Assembly: GCA_003140595.1 (NCBI GenBank)
Contig: PLKG01000098.1
Location: forward strand, 54,081-118,080
Source: Acidimicrobiaceae bacterium
GTDB lineage: Bacteria; Actinomycetota; Acidimicrobiia; Acidimicrobiales; Bog-793
DNA: 64,000 nt
Reading direction: 5' to 3'
The notes under the pieces: generated by a model
What the model was told of the DNA's origin: nothing
Seen by the model: the letters and a program-made list of their open reading frames with translations, nothing else
Databases searched by the model: none
Translations under genes and position numbers: made by a program
Part shown: piece after piece, positions 45,668 to 64,000 of the stretch
How positions within the stretch are numbered: the first letter of the stretch is position 1
Layout: each line of letters opens with the position of its first letter

Positions 45668-45873
45668 GTCGAAGTAGCCCGATGGGATGCGTGAGAAGAG
45701 TCGCGGCGCTTGATAAGTGGCTGCGCAACGAGCCGCTGACGGCTCGCCGCACCGGTGATCTCCCGGCGCCGGCGGGCAGCTGACCGGTTGGAGCGCTCAG
45801 TCCTTGTAGGGTGCTGCCTCACAAAGTGTTCGGCGTACCTCAGTTGCCGTCCCGCCCTTTTGAAAGGACAAGG

Positions 45874-48057
45874 ATGACCCGTTCCCGACTTCTGTTGACA
45901 GGGGTCCTGACCCTGGGCACCCTGTTCGTGCCCGCTGCAGCTGCCATGGGCTCTCCCAAGTTGGCCTCACCTGCGTGCACGGACAGTTGGAAGGCTCCGA
46001 CCAGCGGACTGTGGTCTGACGCCGGCAACTGGACCGCTGGGGTCCCCGGTGAAGCAGGCCCCGTCGCGGCCTGCATCACGGTCTCGGGCACCTACACCGT
46101 GACGCTGGCCCCGTGGTCCATAGGTACCGCCGACCCCAACCACCAGTTTGCCGCCATCACGTCACTCGCCCTCGGCGCTGCTAGCGGACCGGGGGAGCAG
46201 ACCCTGGTCGTCCTCGGGCAGAGCAGCCCCAACGACAGCAACGAGCAGGTCAACACGACGGGCCTGAGCACGACGGCACCGAGCCTGATCACCGCCCACG
46301 GCCGGTTGGTCCTGAGCTCGACTGACGGCGGGGAGAAGGCCAAGGGCGTTCCTTATGGGGGGGACGCAGTGGTCAGTGGCGCCCCGTTCACCAACTATGG
46401 CGCCGTCACGATGACGGTCCAGGACGCCAATAACAAAGCGGCCAACTACACACAGTTCTACAGCGCCTTGACCAATGAGCCCAAGGCTTCTGTGACCGAC
46501 CAGTCGGGCCTCCTGGACGTCAACTCGGTCACCAACGACGGCACATGGACGGTGGCGCCCGGAGCTTCGATGGACCTTGCCTTCCAAACACCCGGGAGCG
46601 GCTATGCCGCCGGGGTGTTCACCAACTCGGGGACTATCAACAACGGCGGCACTATTTCGGCCCAGGGCGCGACCTGGTCGCAGCTCGGCGGAGCGGTCGC
46701 GGGCAACGCGGTGGCCTTGCAGGTCGGCACCAAACTGGTGGACCACGCCGGGGCGGGCAAGTTCGTCGTGAACGTGGAAAGCGCCAGCCTGGTGGGCATC
46801 GTCCCTAAGGGCCAGACGATCACCGTCGTGGGCGAGGTCTACGGCTACCAGGGCGAGAACTACAACAGCACGACCCTCGGGCTGGGCGGCACGACGGTTG
46901 TCAACGACGGGACCATCGTGGTCGATGCTCAAGGGACCAAGACCACCGGCGGGGCGGCGGTGCTAAGCGATGGCACTATCGACAACCACGGCAACCTCGT
47001 GGCCGAGGTGACCCACTCGTCGTGGCCCGTCGAGTGGCAACAAGTCGCCTTGACCAACGAGGTCGGAGGGACGATTACAGACCAGTCCGGCCTTCTGCAG
47101 GTCAACTCTGTTTCCAATGACGGCGCTTTGACAGTGGCACCGGGTGCGTCCCTGGACGTGCTGTCCGGAGCCCTGCCCAACGGCGTGTTCACCAACTCGG
47201 GGACTATCAACAACGGCGGCACGATTTCGGCCCAGGGCGCGACCTGGTCGCAGCTCGGCGGAGCGGTCGCGGGCAACGCGGTGGCCTTGCAGGTCGGCAC
47301 CAAACTGGTGGACCACGCCGGGGCGGGCAAGTTCGTCGTGAACGTGGAAAGCGCCAGCCTGGTGGGCATCGTCCCTAAGGGCCAGACGATCACCGTCGTG
47401 GGCGAGGTCTACGGCTACCAGGGCGAGAACTACAACAGCACGACCCTCGGGCTGGGCGGCACGACGGTTGTCAACAACGGGACAATCGTGCTCGACGCCC
47501 AAGGGTCCAAGACCGGGGGAGGCGCTGCCGATATCAACGATGGCACCTTGCGCAACAACGGCGCCATCCTGGCCGAGGTGCACGGCTCGGCGTGGACAGT
47601 CAACTGGCAGATCGGGCTGACGAACAACCGGTCCGGAAAGGTTACCGTGACCGGCGGGATGCTGAACGAGTCGGGAGGTGGCTCGGACGCCAACGCCGGT
47701 ACAGTGACGGTCGCCCCTGGGGCCACCTGGCTCCTCCAGCAGGGATCGGCGTTCACAAACCAGGCCGGCGGCACCATCGTGACCCAGATCGCTGGTCTCA
47801 CCCGTTTCGGCCAGTTCCAGTTGACTTCTCCGTGCTGCAACGGCGCCGGAGCGATCAACGCCGGCGGGGCCCTCGTCCCTGTCATGGTAGGCGGCTATAG
47901 GCCACCGGCCAACAAGGAGTACCCGATCTTCCAGTTGCTCGGCGGCAAGTTCACCGGCACGTTCAGCCGTGTGCGTGGCGGCTTCGCCGCGGACTACAAG
48001 CACGAAACGACCACCCCGGCGTTCGTCGGCATCATTTACGGCAAGACCGCGAGCTAG
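45874..48057 (+). CDS. Large secreted repeat protein (autotransporter-like beta-helix type repeats)
   Basis: Signal peptide MTRSRLLLTGVLTLGTLFVPAAAAMG; SGLWSDAGNWTAGVPG; recurrent FTNSGTINNGGTISAQGATWSQLGGAVAGN units. Confidence 0.75.
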   Translation: MTRSRLLLTGVLTLGTLFVPAAAAMGSPKLASPACTDSWKAPTSGLWSDAGNWTAGVPGEAGPVAACITVSGTYTVTLAPWSIGTADPNHQFAAITSLALGAASGPGEQTLVVLGQSSPNDSNEQVNTTGLSTTAPSLITAHGRLVLSSTDGGEKAKGVPYGGDAVVSGAPFTNYGAVTMTVQDANNKAANYTQFYSALTNEPKASVTDQSGLLDVNSVTNDGTWTVAPGASMDLAFQTPGSGYAAGVFTNSGTINNGGTISAQGATWSQLGGAVAGNAVALQVGTKLVDHAGAGKFVVNVESASLVGIVPKGQTITVVGEVYGYQGENYNSTTLGLGGTTVVNDGTIVVDAQGTKTTGGAAVLSDGTIDNHGNLVAEVTHSSWPVEWQQVALTNEVGGTITDQSGLLQVNSVSNDGALTVAPGASLDVLSGALPNGVFTNSGTINNGGTISAQGATWSQLGGAVAGNAVALQVGTKLVDHAGAGKFVVNVESASLVGIVPKGQTITVVGEVYGYQGENYNSTTLGLGGTTVVNNGTIVLDAQGSKTGGGAADINDGTLRNNGAILAEVHGSAWTVNWQIGLTNNRSGKVTVTGGMLNESGGGSDANAGTVTVAPGATWLLQQGSAFTNQAGGTIVTQIAGLTRFGQFQLTSPCCNGAGAINAGGALVPVMVGGYRPPANKEYPIFQLLGGKFTGTFSRVRGGFAADYKHETTTPAFVGIIYGKTAS
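46615..46905 (+). repeat. Internal DNA cassette, copy 1
   Basis: Matches 47185-47475 with a single mismatch (46653 T vs 47223 G); offset 570 nt. Confidence 0.95.
47185..47475 (+). repeat. Internal DNA cassette, copy 2
   Basis: See copy 1. Confidence 0.95.
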
Positions 48058-48446: not shown

Positions 48447-48517
48447 CAGCCCAACGGGATTCGAACCCGTGTCTCCACCTTGCGAGGGTGGCTGGATTAC
48501 CGCTAAGAGATGCGGCT
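48447..48517 (-). tRNA. Degenerate tRNA-Glu-like gene (probable tRNA pseudogene; anticodon position reads CGC)
   Basis: Reverse complement AGCCGCATCTCTTAGCGGTAATCCAGCCACCCTCGCAAGGTGGAGACACGGGTTCGAATCCCGTTGGGCTG: intact anticodon stem and T-arm, D-arm with mismatch, disrupted acceptor stem, no encoded CCA. Confidence 0.6.
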
Positions 48518-48708
48518 TTCGGTACTCCTAGGCCTCTCACTGCGACACCTGCGGCGCCTGCGGCTGAAAGTCAGTTGGCGGAATGTTGGCGAAACGGGCA
48601 AGGGCAGCTGCTCCGCGGGAGCCATCTACGCCAAGCCTTCGCAAGGCAGGAGGGTCCGTCACGCGACACTCCGTAAGCCGACCTCAGCCTGCACCCAGAA
48701 CTGTGAAC

Positions 48709-49062
48709 ATGGTTGTGCAACGGGCCACTGCAACGGAGCCGACGGCTCCGAGCTTGACCGTGTTGCGCTCGCACAAATCCGACATCCTTCGGGTGGCGAA
48801 AGCCCACGGCGCATCGAATATCAGAGTATTTGGCTCGGTTGCCAGAGGGACGGCAACACCTACGAGCGACGTGGACCTGCTGGTCGACTTCCAATATGGA
48901 CGCACACTCGTCGACCTTGTGCGTCTCTGGCGAGGGGTCGAGACACTGCTTGGCACCGGCGTCGACGTCAGCGCTGGAGGTCTGGCCGAGCGCGACGACG
49001 ACATCAGAGCTGACGCGCGGCCAACTGAACAATCGTCACGGCATCGACAAGACCGTCGCTGA
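48709..49062 (+). CDS. MNT-type minimal nucleotidyltransferase (antitoxin-like)
   Basis: GASNIRVFGSVARGTATPTSDVDLLVDFQYGRTLVDLVRL: GSxAxG...DxDLLV motif. Confidence 0.85.
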   Translation: MVVQRATATEPTAPSLTVLRSHKSDILRVAKAHGASNIRVFGSVARGTATPTSDVDLLVDFQYGRTLVDLVRLWRGVETLLGTGVDVSAGGLAERDDDIRADARPTEQSSRHRQDRR

Positions 49063-60609: not shown

Positions 60610-60658
60610 TGGCAGCCCCAACGGGATTCGAACCCGTGTCTCCACCCTGAGAGGGTAG
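60610..60658 (-). tRNA. tRNA-Glu(CTC) 3' fragment: candidate att site/integration scar
   Basis: Reverse complement CTACCCTCTCAGGGTGGAGACACGGGTTCGAATCCCGTTGGGGCTGCCA: anticodon arm with CTC, T-arm, 3' acceptor strand and encoded CCA; no D-arm or 5' acceptor. Confidence 0.8.
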
Positions 60659-60723: not shown

Positions 60724-61824
60724 ATGGCCAGCAAGTACAGGACGAGGAGGGCCTTCGGGGGTGTCCGTCGCCTGCCCTCGGGGCGCTACCAGGCGACGTA
60801 CTGGCACAACGGCAAGCAATTCAAGGGTGAAAGCACCTTCGGCGCCAAGGCGGACGCTCACAAGTGGCTCACCATCGTCGAGGCCGATCTCCACCGGGGC
60901 CAGTGGATGGAAGCTTCGAAAACCCAGGACACCACTTTTTCTGAATACGCACAGGCCTGGATTGCTCGACGTTCGGGAACCAAGCTGAGGGCGACGACCG
61001 AAGCAAAGTACCGCGGGCTGCTCGATCGCCACATCTTGCCGACCTTTGGCGACTGCAACTTGTCCGAGATCGACCCGGATCGGGTCGAGGCTTGGTATTA
61101 CCCGCTCAAGCGCCAGCACCCTCCGACCGCAGCCGGTGCGTACCGGCTGATGGCGACGATCTGCAACACGGCCGTCAGGATGGACGTGATCGCAAAGTCA
61201 CCTTGCCGCGTCGAAGGTGGCGCCACGGAGGCTTCCACAGAGCGTCCGGTCATAACCCGGGACGAGCTGCAGTGGGCCGTCGACTCCGTGCCTGATCGTT
61301 ACCGGGCAGCGCTCTTGTTGGCGGCCTGGTGCCAATTGCGCCGGAGCGAAGTGCTGGGGCTGCAACGAGGCGATATCGACCTCGATGCGGGCTCGATCCA
61401 CGTCCGTCGAGCCTGGGTCGTGGCTCCTGACGGCAAGCGTTGCCAGCAGGGTCCGAAGACCGAGGCAGGTGACAGAACGCTGTACATGACCGAAGACGTG
61501 CGTACGGCACTGCGAGCGCACCTTGCGACCTATGTCGGACCGCAGGCGAGCGCCTGGCTCTTCCCGAACAAGGACGGCACTGCACCTGTCATCCATCGGA
61601 CCTTCTCCCGTGTGTGGGAGCGGGCTCGACGGGTCTCCGGCCGCGAGGATCTTCGCTTCCACGACCTCAGACATTCGGGCTTGACATGGTTTGCTCAAGC
61701 TGGCGCCACCCAGGCGGACCTGATGCACCAGGCCGGCCACGCAAGCCCAGCGGCAGCTAGCCGGTATCAGCACGCCGAAGCTGAGCGGGCCAAGATGCTG
61801 GTCGCGAAAATGGCCGCGCCGTAG
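60724..61824 (+). CDS. int: Tyrosine recombinase / phage-type site-specific integrase
   Basis: AAWCQLRRSEVLGLQRGDIDL (Arg I), RFHDLRHSGLTWFAQAGATQADLMHQAGHASPAAASRYQHAE (HxxR...H...Y). Confidence 0.95.
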   Translation: MASKYRTRRAFGGVRRLPSGRYQATYWHNGKQFKGESTFGAKADAHKWLTIVEADLHRGQWMEASKTQDTTFSEYAQAWIARRSGTKLRATTEAKYRGLLDRHILPTFGDCNLSEIDPDRVEAWYYPLKRQHPPTAAGAYRLMATICNTAVRMDVIAKSPCRVEGGATEASTERPVITRDELQWAVDSVPDRYRAALLLAAWCQLRRSEVLGLQRGDIDLDAGSIHVRRAWVVAPDGKRCQQGPKTEAGDRTLYMTEDVRTALRAHLATYVGPQASAWLFPNKDGTAPVIHRTFSRVWERARRVSGREDLRFHDLRHSGLTWFAQAGATQADLMHQAGHASPAAASRYQHAEAERAKMLVAKMAAP

Positions 61825-61830
61825 CCCTAG

Positions 61831-61884
61831 AACACTAATATAAGTCTTCTTGCCTTGAGAGCCGGGAACACTTATACTTGCAGC
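61831..61884 (+). promoter_or_regulatory. Promoter plus repeat operator of the AbiE-like operon
   Basis: TTGCCT (61850-55), 17 nt, TATACT (61873-78), ATG at 61885; inverted repeat TATAAGT/ACTTATA (61839-45/61870-76) and direct repeat AACACTAATA/AACACTTATA (61831/61867). Confidence 0.55.
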
Positions 61885-62544
61885 ATGACGGTAGAAATGG
61901 AGCGGCCCAAGACACGAAGGTGGGGCGAGGCCACCTCTCGCGCCGTCCGGCTCCTCGCGGTCCGCACCGTCCCCACGTTGCAGGTCGACCTCGCAAGGGA
62001 ACTCGGCATCACCCAGCCGCGCGTCTCACAGATCGGAAGACTCCTCGCAACCGAGGACGTCAGGTTCGCGGACGTGCACGAGGCGGACCAACGCGCCCGG
62101 CTGGTTCTTCTATACGCGCTCCATCACGCTCCAGCGGTCGTGACCGAGACACTCTGGTACGACATCGACCCCTCACACGAACAGGTCGCCCGTGCCGTTG
62201 CCTACCTCGTAGAAGCCGGCGCCGTGGCAGTCGTCTCAGCCGACGCCGCCCCCGACTTCGTCGCTCCTTGGCGGTCGCCGACGCTAACGGTGATCTACAC
62301 CAACCTCGACGCGCCGCTCGACTCGGCCGGCTTCGTCCCCGCCATGGCCAGGGGCGAGGCGAGCATCGTCCTCCGCCACGTGTCCGACCCGAGCCTGCTC
62401 GAACCATGGCAAGCCCCGAGGGAGGCGCCATTCCCCCTTGCGCACCCGTTGCAGCAGATATGGGACCTGCGTGACCTCGGCGGAGAGGACAGGTTCGAGG
62501 CCTCCGAGCGGCTCATGCGCCGCGTCGTGATGGGCACCCTATGA
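61885..62544 (+). CDS. HTH protein, AbiEi-like antitoxin candidate
   Basis: PTLQVDLARELGITQPRVSQIGRLLATED winged-HTH; C-terminal PLAHPLQQIWDLRDLGGEDRFEASERLMRRV resembles AbiEi-type antitoxin C-termini. Confidence 0.6.
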   Translation: MTVEMERPKTRRWGEATSRAVRLLAVRTVPTLQVDLARELGITQPRVSQIGRLLATEDVRFADVHEADQRARLVLLYALHHAPAVVTETLWYDIDPSHEQVARAVAYLVEAGAVAVVSADAAPDFVAPWRSPTLTVIYTNLDAPLDSAGFVPAMARGEASIVLRHVSDPSLLEPWQAPREAPFPLAHPLQQIWDLRDLGGEDRFEASERLMRRVVMGTL

Positions 62545-62633
62545 AGGTGGCAATGCGACAAACCGTCCCGCAACCGGTGGCGGAGGAACGATGACGGCGG
62601 GCGACTGCAGGGGCCGCGATGCTGGGAGATCCC

Positions 62634-63623
62634 ATGGCGACGCGTAGGTGCATGTCCATGGAGACGAGCGACGGCAAGCCATGCGAGAACGAGGTCGACG
62701 TTGGGTCGGCTTTCTGTGGCGCGGGCCACCTGTGCGTCTCGCCGCCCGGCAGTCATGCTCCGCTTGCGCCCACGTCTGCGCCGTCAGACCCGCGCCCGGT
62801 CGAGGACATCCTGGCTGTCTCTGGCGGCGGGACGGATCGGCTGGTGATGATGAGTCCGTCGGCAGCGGACGATGGCGGGTTCGTTGCGATGGCCGACGTG
62901 ACGAGGGCGGCAGGGCTGGCGGAGATGGGCGCCGACTACCGGCTGCTCGGTGGGATCGCCGTGATGCTCCACATCTTGCGCCTCGGCATCGACGTGCCCC
63001 TCCGGAGGACAGGCGACGCCGACTTCGGAGTTCCGCCGCACGTGCTGAAGTCCGGTCGCCTGGTCGAGGAACTGGAAGCCATGGGCTACAAGAAAACGAG
63101 CGGTTGCACCTGGGAGCGCGTGCTCGACGGACGGCGGACGGCGTCGACCGATCTGCTCATACCTGCGTACACCTCACGGCCGCGAGTCAACAAGAAGATC
63201 AACAGCAACGGGACCAAGGTCGTGACGACCGAGGTGCCCGGTCTCGCCGAGGCGCTCAGGCGCACGCCCGTGCGATTGCCGGTCCGCTTCGTCCTCTCTG
63301 ATCGGCGTGCGATCGAGACCGAGGTGCTGCTCCCCGATGCCGTGGGAATGTTGCTCCTGAAGGCGGGCGCGAGAAAGGTCCGCAACGAGGAGCGCGACTC
63401 GACCGACTTGTGGCGATGCCTCGAGGTGGCTGCTGCAGAGGGCGTGACATCCAGTGACCTCCCCACCGATCCGGTCATCGGGGACCTCGGCGCGGTCCTC
63501 CGCGAAGAACTCCGACGAGGAGGCCGGTCGATCCCAGCCATCACCAAGGAACTGACGCCCACGGCGGCGGGTCGTATAGAGACTCGGATCCAGGCGTTGC
63601 TCCTGAGAGTCACCGGCTCCTGA
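62634..63623 (+). CDS. AbiEii-like nucleotidyltransferase with N-terminal Cys/His-rich motif
   Basis: LLGGIAVMLHILRLGIDVPLRRTGDADFGVPP (GG...TxDxD nucleotidyltransferase motif); N-terminal CMSMETSDGKPCENEVDVGSAFCGAGHLC. Confidence 0.65.
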   Translation: MATRRCMSMETSDGKPCENEVDVGSAFCGAGHLCVSPPGSHAPLAPTSAPSDPRPVEDILAVSGGGTDRLVMMSPSAADDGGFVAMADVTRAAGLAEMGADYRLLGGIAVMLHILRLGIDVPLRRTGDADFGVPPHVLKSGRLVEELEAMGYKKTSGCTWERVLDGRRTASTDLLIPAYTSRPRVNKKINSNGTKVVTTEVPGLAEALRRTPVRLPVRFVLSDRRAIETEVLLPDAVGMLLLKAGARKVRNEERDSTDLWRCLEVAAAEGVTSSDLPTDPVIGDLGAVLREELRRGGRSIPAITKELTPTAAGRIETRIQALLLRVTGS

Positions 63624-63803: not shown

Positions 63804-63998
63804 TCACAGCTGGCTTGCAATCGCCTCTCCACGACTCCGGGGAAATTTGGGGGCGTCAAGCCGCCCGTGCCTGACGTGAGGGTGGCGAGCATCATCAAGC
63901 CAGGCAGTGATCTCGGCCGGGTCGAAGCGGACAAGCCACCCAACCTTCAGGTAGGGCACCCGTCGTTCGGCGATGAGTCGGCGGATGTGGCGAATGCT
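63804..63998 (-). CDS. Excisionase/HTH_17-like protein, C-terminal part (runs off window end)
   Basis: SIRHIRRLIAERRVPYLKVGWLVRFDPAEITAWLDDARHPHVRHGRLDAPKFPRSRGEAIASQL*; not in the ORF track because its start is outside the window. Confidence 0.8.
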   Translation of the reverse strand, partial: SIRHIRRLIAERRVPYLKVGWLVRFDPAEITAWLDDARHPHVRHGRLDAPKFPRSRGEAIASQL

Positions 63999-64000
63999 CA

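Follow-up and report, generated by a model that had tools for sequence, protein, structure and literature searches.

A probable divergent AbiE-type toxin–antitoxin operon with a Cys/His knuckle on its nucleotidyltransferase in an Acidimicrobiaceae bacterium

In AbiE systems the antitoxin AbiEi represses its own operon through inverted repeats over the promoter, as does Rv2827c (PMC3985639, PMC7319586), and the C-terminal domains of AbiEi proteins have a nucleotidyltransferase (NTase)-like core in common (PMC7319586). The partner protein, AbiEii, carries four motifs, of which motif III corresponds to K173/R180 and motif IV to +DxxD, and toxicity is abolished when these motifs are mutated (PMC3985639). 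Among the MenT enzymes, MenT1 and MenT3 extend the 3' ends of tRNAs by adding nucleotides (PMC10435456). Motif II of MenT1 comprises R37/T39/D41/D43, and the residues that become autophosphorylated are T39 in MenT1 and S78 in MenT3 (PMC11375011).

Here we analyse a stretch of 64,000 nucleotides from an Acidimicrobiaceae bacterium (contig PLKG01000098.1; hereafter the window), in which a first-pass annotation had proposed a divergent AbiE-like module beside an integrase. That proposal is upheld by several lines of evidence that agree with one another, namely profile matches to AbiEi_2, the presence of all four NTase motifs, gene pairing, a promoter repeat, and integrase and tRNA neighbours. Very probably, the two genes form a divergent AbiE-type toxin–antitoxin (TA) operon, composed of an AbiEi_2-type autorepressing antitoxin and an AbiEii/MenT-type NTase toxin, and are carried as cargo of a mobile element. 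The computed basis for this reading consists of homology, motifs, fold, gene pairing, operator conservation and the rarity of the knuckle.

The locus, its relatives and its mobile context

Three genes follow one another on the forward strand of the window: a tyrosine integrase (60724..61824; PF00589, E 3.4e-22, and PF14659, E 1.3e-9), the HTH gene (61885..62544) and the NTase gene (62634..63623). This is the order noted in the first-pass annotation, which had also pointed out a GG...TxDxD motif in the third protein; we place the GG at residues 106-107 and TGDAD at residues 126-130. Just upstream of the integrase, the reverse strand carries a tRNA-Glu-like gene reduced to its 3' half (60610..60656), which matches the 3' half of an intact tRNA-Glu of the same genome at 89% and another tRNA fragment of that genome at 94%. 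The genome has further fragments of this 3' half besides the intact tRNA-Glu, and ARAGORN found no intact tRNA in the window. The fragment is likely the remnant of an attachment site, with an element running rightward from it. The window ends where the contig ends, and the right end of the element would fall beyond it; a partial HTH_17/excisionase-like frame (E 0.006; 63804-64000, reverse strand) runs off the contig end, which fits an element that continues to the right. In this arrangement the TA operon would be cargo of the integrase-bearing element and would stabilise it and/or abort phage infection; the sequence fits defence and element maintenance alike.

Elsewhere in the window, a weak tRNA-like sequence at 48447-48517 (reverse strand; Rfam tRNA 29.5 bits, threshold 29) has the same tRNA 3' half as that at 60610 and adjoins an MNT-type nucleotidyltransferase open reading frame (PF01909, E 3.5e-9) at 48583-49062 on the forward strand. 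Another element may have its site here, or the region may be what is left of a HEPN/MNT module. Nearby, a 748-aa protein (45811-48057, forward strand) contains two near-identical repeat blocks.

Plasmids, whole genomes and genome contigs were searched for related loci, and 37 distinct ones were obtained, counting that of the window; they come from Acidimicrobiia (labelled Acidimicrobiales) and others, and some lie on plasmids of Rhodococcus and Frondihabitans. No relative of the NTase turned up in viral contigs or in the phage collection. The neighbourhood is conserved, as the AbiE proposal had anticipated, with an NTase gene directly downstream of a relative of the HTH gene in nearly all 37 loci. 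The exceptions are L036 and L041, in which no antitoxin frame was found, and L168, in which the order is reversed. In this last locus (G806:C117, reverse complement 1378-2904), a distant relative without the operator described below, the NTase comes first and a short antitoxin second. The two genes overlap by ATGA in four loci (L033, L034, L035, L038). Integrases related to that of the window stand beside or near the pair in four relatives (L004, L029, L030, L034), and tRNA genes flank it or lie near it in five (L006, L031, L034, L038, L040). The toxin gene is broken in G256, L036, L037, L039 and L040, by a frameshift in the case of G256, and three of these (G256, L037, L039) keep the antitoxin frame. 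Broken toxin genes are common among TA modules.

The genome of the window itself gave 14 matches to PF08843 (AbiEii), more than any of the 59 relatives searched, which would mean that canonical AbiE-type loci are numerous in it alongside the divergent one.

The two proteins and their shared promoter

The HTH gene product comprises 219 aa, with an N-terminal winged helix-turn-helix (wHTH; about residues 14-60) followed by a C-terminal domain. The first-pass annotation was right that the gene is present, whereas its start does not hold: it had been placed at 61831 because the frame is open from there, and the best start is the ATG at 61885. Pfam, NCBIfam and PADLOC contain no family that this protein matches above cut-off. 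When an alignment of the short antitoxins was compared by hhalign with AbiEi_2, a family built for this comparison from PF09952 members, the match reached 97.1% (E 5.8e-11), and 99.4% once long members had been added to the alignment, with unrelated controls at 0.2% or less. An AbiEi_2-type partner is thus recognised, in keeping with the original proposal, at the level of the antitoxin family. Since the HTH protein by itself gives 34%, the link to AbiEi_2 is carried by the family alignment. One antitoxin homologue matches the Pfam PF09952 model directly (E 8.4e-5), and an NTase-type frame lies directly downstream in 20 of 26 AbiEi_2 loci. More distant relatives have a longer antitoxin with an extra N-terminal domain. 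The AlphaFold model (pLDDT 87) consists of the wHTH and a second domain; its best PDB matches are the MenT1 and ANT(2'') nucleotidyltransferases, both weak (E over 0.03), and they agree with the NTase-like core published for AbiEi C-terminal domains. The AbiEi of S. agalactiae (6y8q) is absent among the 50 best PDB matches. Profile and architecture, as opposed to standard cut-offs, support the HTH protein as a distant AbiEi_2-type member, in which the C-terminal domain would restrain the toxin.

The putative toxin is a protein of 329 aa starting at the ATG at 62634, with a further in-frame ATG at 62619; G256, the closest relative, starts at the equivalent ATG, which is preceded there by AGGAGGT. 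The protein has no match above cut-off in Pfam (including PF08843), NCBIfam or PADLOC, and single-protein sequence searches of Pfam, NCBIfam, PADLOC and PDB gave nothing useful. By hhalign, an alignment of the NTase and its homologues matches NTases linked to AbiEi_2 genes at 96% (E 4e-9), compared with 13% for canonical PF08843 proteins; assignment to a canonical PF08843 AbiEii system was rejected on this last value. Four of 11 homologues do match PF08843 (best E 1.8e-4) and three of 11 match the PADLOC AbiEii model (1.3e-4).

All four published AbiEii motifs are found in the window protein. Motif I, hG[G/S] in AbiEii, corresponds to LGG at residues 105-107, of which G106-G107 (62949..62954) are invariant across relatives. 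Motif II, R124-x-T126-x-D128-x-D130 (63003..63023), is likewise invariant, and its T126 aligns with the MenT phosphoacceptor position (MenT1 T39, MenT3 S78). Motif III, K243-x6-R250 (63360..63383), repeats the seven-residue step from Lys to Arg of AbiEii K173/R180, and motif IV, R254-D255-x-x-D258 (63393..63407), has the form +DxxD; both are invariant in the near set, and some long-antitoxin relatives lack the basic residue of motif IV. With a core conserved in 37 loci and invariant motif residues, the motif picked out in the first-pass annotation exceeds chance. The AlphaFold2 model has an overall pLDDT of 79, which exceeds 90 across most of the core, giving the confident NTase core that the AbiE reading called for, and its best PDB match is MenT1 (8an4; E 5.9e-4, prob 1.00) with moderate TM-scores of 0.32/0.51. 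Taken together, profile, motifs and architecture, though not standard cut-offs, support the NTase as a distant AbiEii-type member. Its fold and motifs suggest that such an enzyme, when unrestrained, would probably extend the 3' ends of tRNAs with nucleotides and so halt translation.

The structure matches show that the same fold occurs in ANT(2'')-Ia and CD-NTases, so that the gene might instead encode a non-toxic NTase, acting for example in small-molecule or RNA modification, under a wHTH regulator and outside any TA pair. We consider this unlikely: the partner falls in an antitoxin family by profile, all four motifs linked to AbiEii toxicity are in place, the pair is patchily spread on plasmids and beside integrases, and in three relatives the toxin is broken while the antitoxin frame is kept, as would be the case for TA genes.

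Immediately ahead of the HTH gene lies a putative operator (61839..61876), an inverted repeat of the form TATAAGTCTTC-N16-GAACACTTATA, whose arms pair at 10 of 11 positions. Within it is a promoter-like sequence, TTGCCT-17-TATACT (61850..61878, forward strand), which is conserved in relatives. Because its -10 element ends six bases before the ATG at 61885, the mRNA of the operon is probably leaderless. The general pattern TATAAGnnTTC-N14-16-GAAnnCTTATA was found in 19 distinct loci of the short-antitoxin type, where it overlies the promoter and lies no more than about 50 bases ahead of the antitoxin gene. The window locus has the sole copy in the 3.5 Mb genome, in which the reversed control pattern has no match. 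In several lineages the variable arm positions covary (GTG/CAC, GTC/GAC, GCC/GGC), with some mismatches. The pattern was not found in the long-antitoxin group, in L162, where both genes are decayed, or in the reversed locus L168. The conserved repeat over the promoter, together with the precedent of AbiEi and Rv2827c, makes AbiEi-type autorepression likely as the control of this operon: the winged helix of the antitoxin would bind the inverted repeat and repress the operon's own promoter. Having the operator at the level of sequence makes this autoregulation directly testable.

Two variations on the operator were seen. In L033, L034, L035, L038 and L004 an extra half-site of the ATAAG..TTC type lies upstream of the operator at a distance of 12 bases, which suggests that one subgroup has a third position for binding. 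In L036 (position 5990), where the antitoxin is missing and the toxin broken, a half-operator, TATAAGTGTT, stands directly before the toxin gene, an arrangement that resembles the outcome of a deletion joining promoter region and toxin.

A Cys/His knuckle ahead of the nucleotidyltransferase

The NTase is preceded in the same protein by a CCCH knuckle at residues 6-32 (62649..62729), CMSMETSDGKPCENEVDVGSAFCGAGH, with the pattern C-x5-x-G-K-P-C...F-C-G-A-G-H, and by a Pro/Ser-rich linker (62736..62840) that joins the knuckle to the NTase and is predicted to be disordered. The N-terminal peptide quoted in the first-pass annotation is correct as far as it goes, although MATRR precedes it and it is therefore not the very start of the protein. 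The AlphaFold2 pLDDT is below 50 across most of residues 1-67.

Most relatives start about 10 residues ahead of a conserved S-x-A-x-D, and the Cys/His stretch faces only gaps in the alignment used and comes out disordered in the model, as it would be if it were an untranslated 5' region or a chance frame and the true toxin start lay near residue 69. That reading is nonetheless very improbable. The knuckle Cys and His residues are all identical in G256, whereas the linker has diverged, and dN/dS between the two sequences is about 0.38 for the knuckle, compared with about 0.72 for the linker and 0.12 for the NTase, values that are rough given the short stretches. Furthermore, a strong ribosome-binding site lies ahead of the equivalent ATG in G256, and unrelated proteins open with the same knuckle. 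We conclude that the Cys/His extension is probably translated.

A homolog search for conservation of the extension, which had been proposed as a check, found it in just two of the 37 loci, those of the window and of G256 from the same family, and the extension was rejected as a feature of the toxin family. An identical type of knuckle occurs at the N-termini of unrelated proteins in related genomes, including a HEPN-type one, and a wider version is common on assorted proteins across the phylum. A knuckle profile run over 346 genomes of the class gave nothing below E 6e-4 beyond its own seeds, and over the phylum it recovered real but unrelated carriers; the knuckle peptide had no plasmid match, and its phage matches had E values of 4 or worse. 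For the knuckle alone, Pfam offered LRV_FeS, too weak (E 0.17) to be accepted. The occurrence on unrelated proteins and in two of 37 loci indicates that the knuckle is, as judged by sequence, a portable accessory piece and a lineage-specific addition, not a family feature. In this lineage the toxin would have gained it on a flexible linker, where it more likely tunes target or partner binding than catalysis. It is a rare case of an accessory knuckle of metal-binding type on a TA toxin, and, if it matters, it would open a way to learn how AbiE/MenT toxins locate their targets or perceive infection.

L089 (1423-2815; G302:C19) encodes a HEPN-type protein with the same knuckle at its N-terminus, and its gene converges on one for a wHTH-NTase. 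The two may form a HEPN/MNT toxin-antitoxin pair tagged with a knuckle; the HEPN assignment (PF05168, E 0.004) is below cut-off.

Two bolder readings of the knuckle can be set beside that of a portable piece. One takes it for a sensor of metal or redox state through which toxin activity is switched, so that the operon would be a triggered AbiE of a new kind. The HEPN-type protein that bears the same type of knuckle and, in a same-family genome, faces an HTH-NTase gene would fit, although only two NTase members carry the knuckle and the motif also sits on non-toxin proteins, and we regard such a switch as quite unlikely. The other, which we consider doubtful, is that the portable knuckle serves as a common targeting or sensing module on unrelated TA toxins (AbiEii-type NTase, HEPN) and gives them a common trigger or target in this bacterial family.

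Comparison with described systems

The window pair appears to be a remote AbiE branch that has not yet been catalogued, missed by current family libraries and by the PADLOC defence library. With AbiE of S. agalactiae and Lactococcus (PMC3985639, PMC7319586) it has in common the gene order, an antitoxin with a wHTH and, as modelled here, a C-terminal domain, an NTase toxin with motifs I-IV, promoter inverted repeats and a location in a mobile element. It differs in a sequence too distant for the cut-offs of Pfam, NCBIfam and PADLOC, in a single dyad with arms of 11-13 bp in its group where AbiE has two 23-bp repeats, in a gap of 20 residues from G107 to D128 compared with the 15 residues between motifs I and II of AbiE, and in its N-terminal knuckle. 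MenAT3 and MenAT4 of Mycobacterium tuberculosis (PMC10435456, PMC11375011) likewise combine the NTase fold and R-x-T/S-x-D-x-D with its phosphoacceptor position with a wHTH antitoxin (MenA3/MenA4), whereas the window antitoxin aligns with AbiEi_2 (PF09952) and the window toxin has the knuckle.

Further counterparts are the AbiEi_2 (PF09952) proteins of Actinomycetota and their linked NTases, which both window proteins match by profile and which share the NTase directly downstream; the window antitoxin is without the extra N-terminal domain seen in the AbiEi_2 proteins used for comparison and in the long-antitoxin subgroup. Finally, the knuckle has the Cys/His pattern and TxxGxPC core of the small knuckle C-x4-6-TxxGxPC-x7-10-C-x2-3-H, which many Actinomycetota proteins carry, and the window copy is distinguished by its place on the N-terminus of an AbiEii-type NTase and by its ending, C-x-A-G-H.
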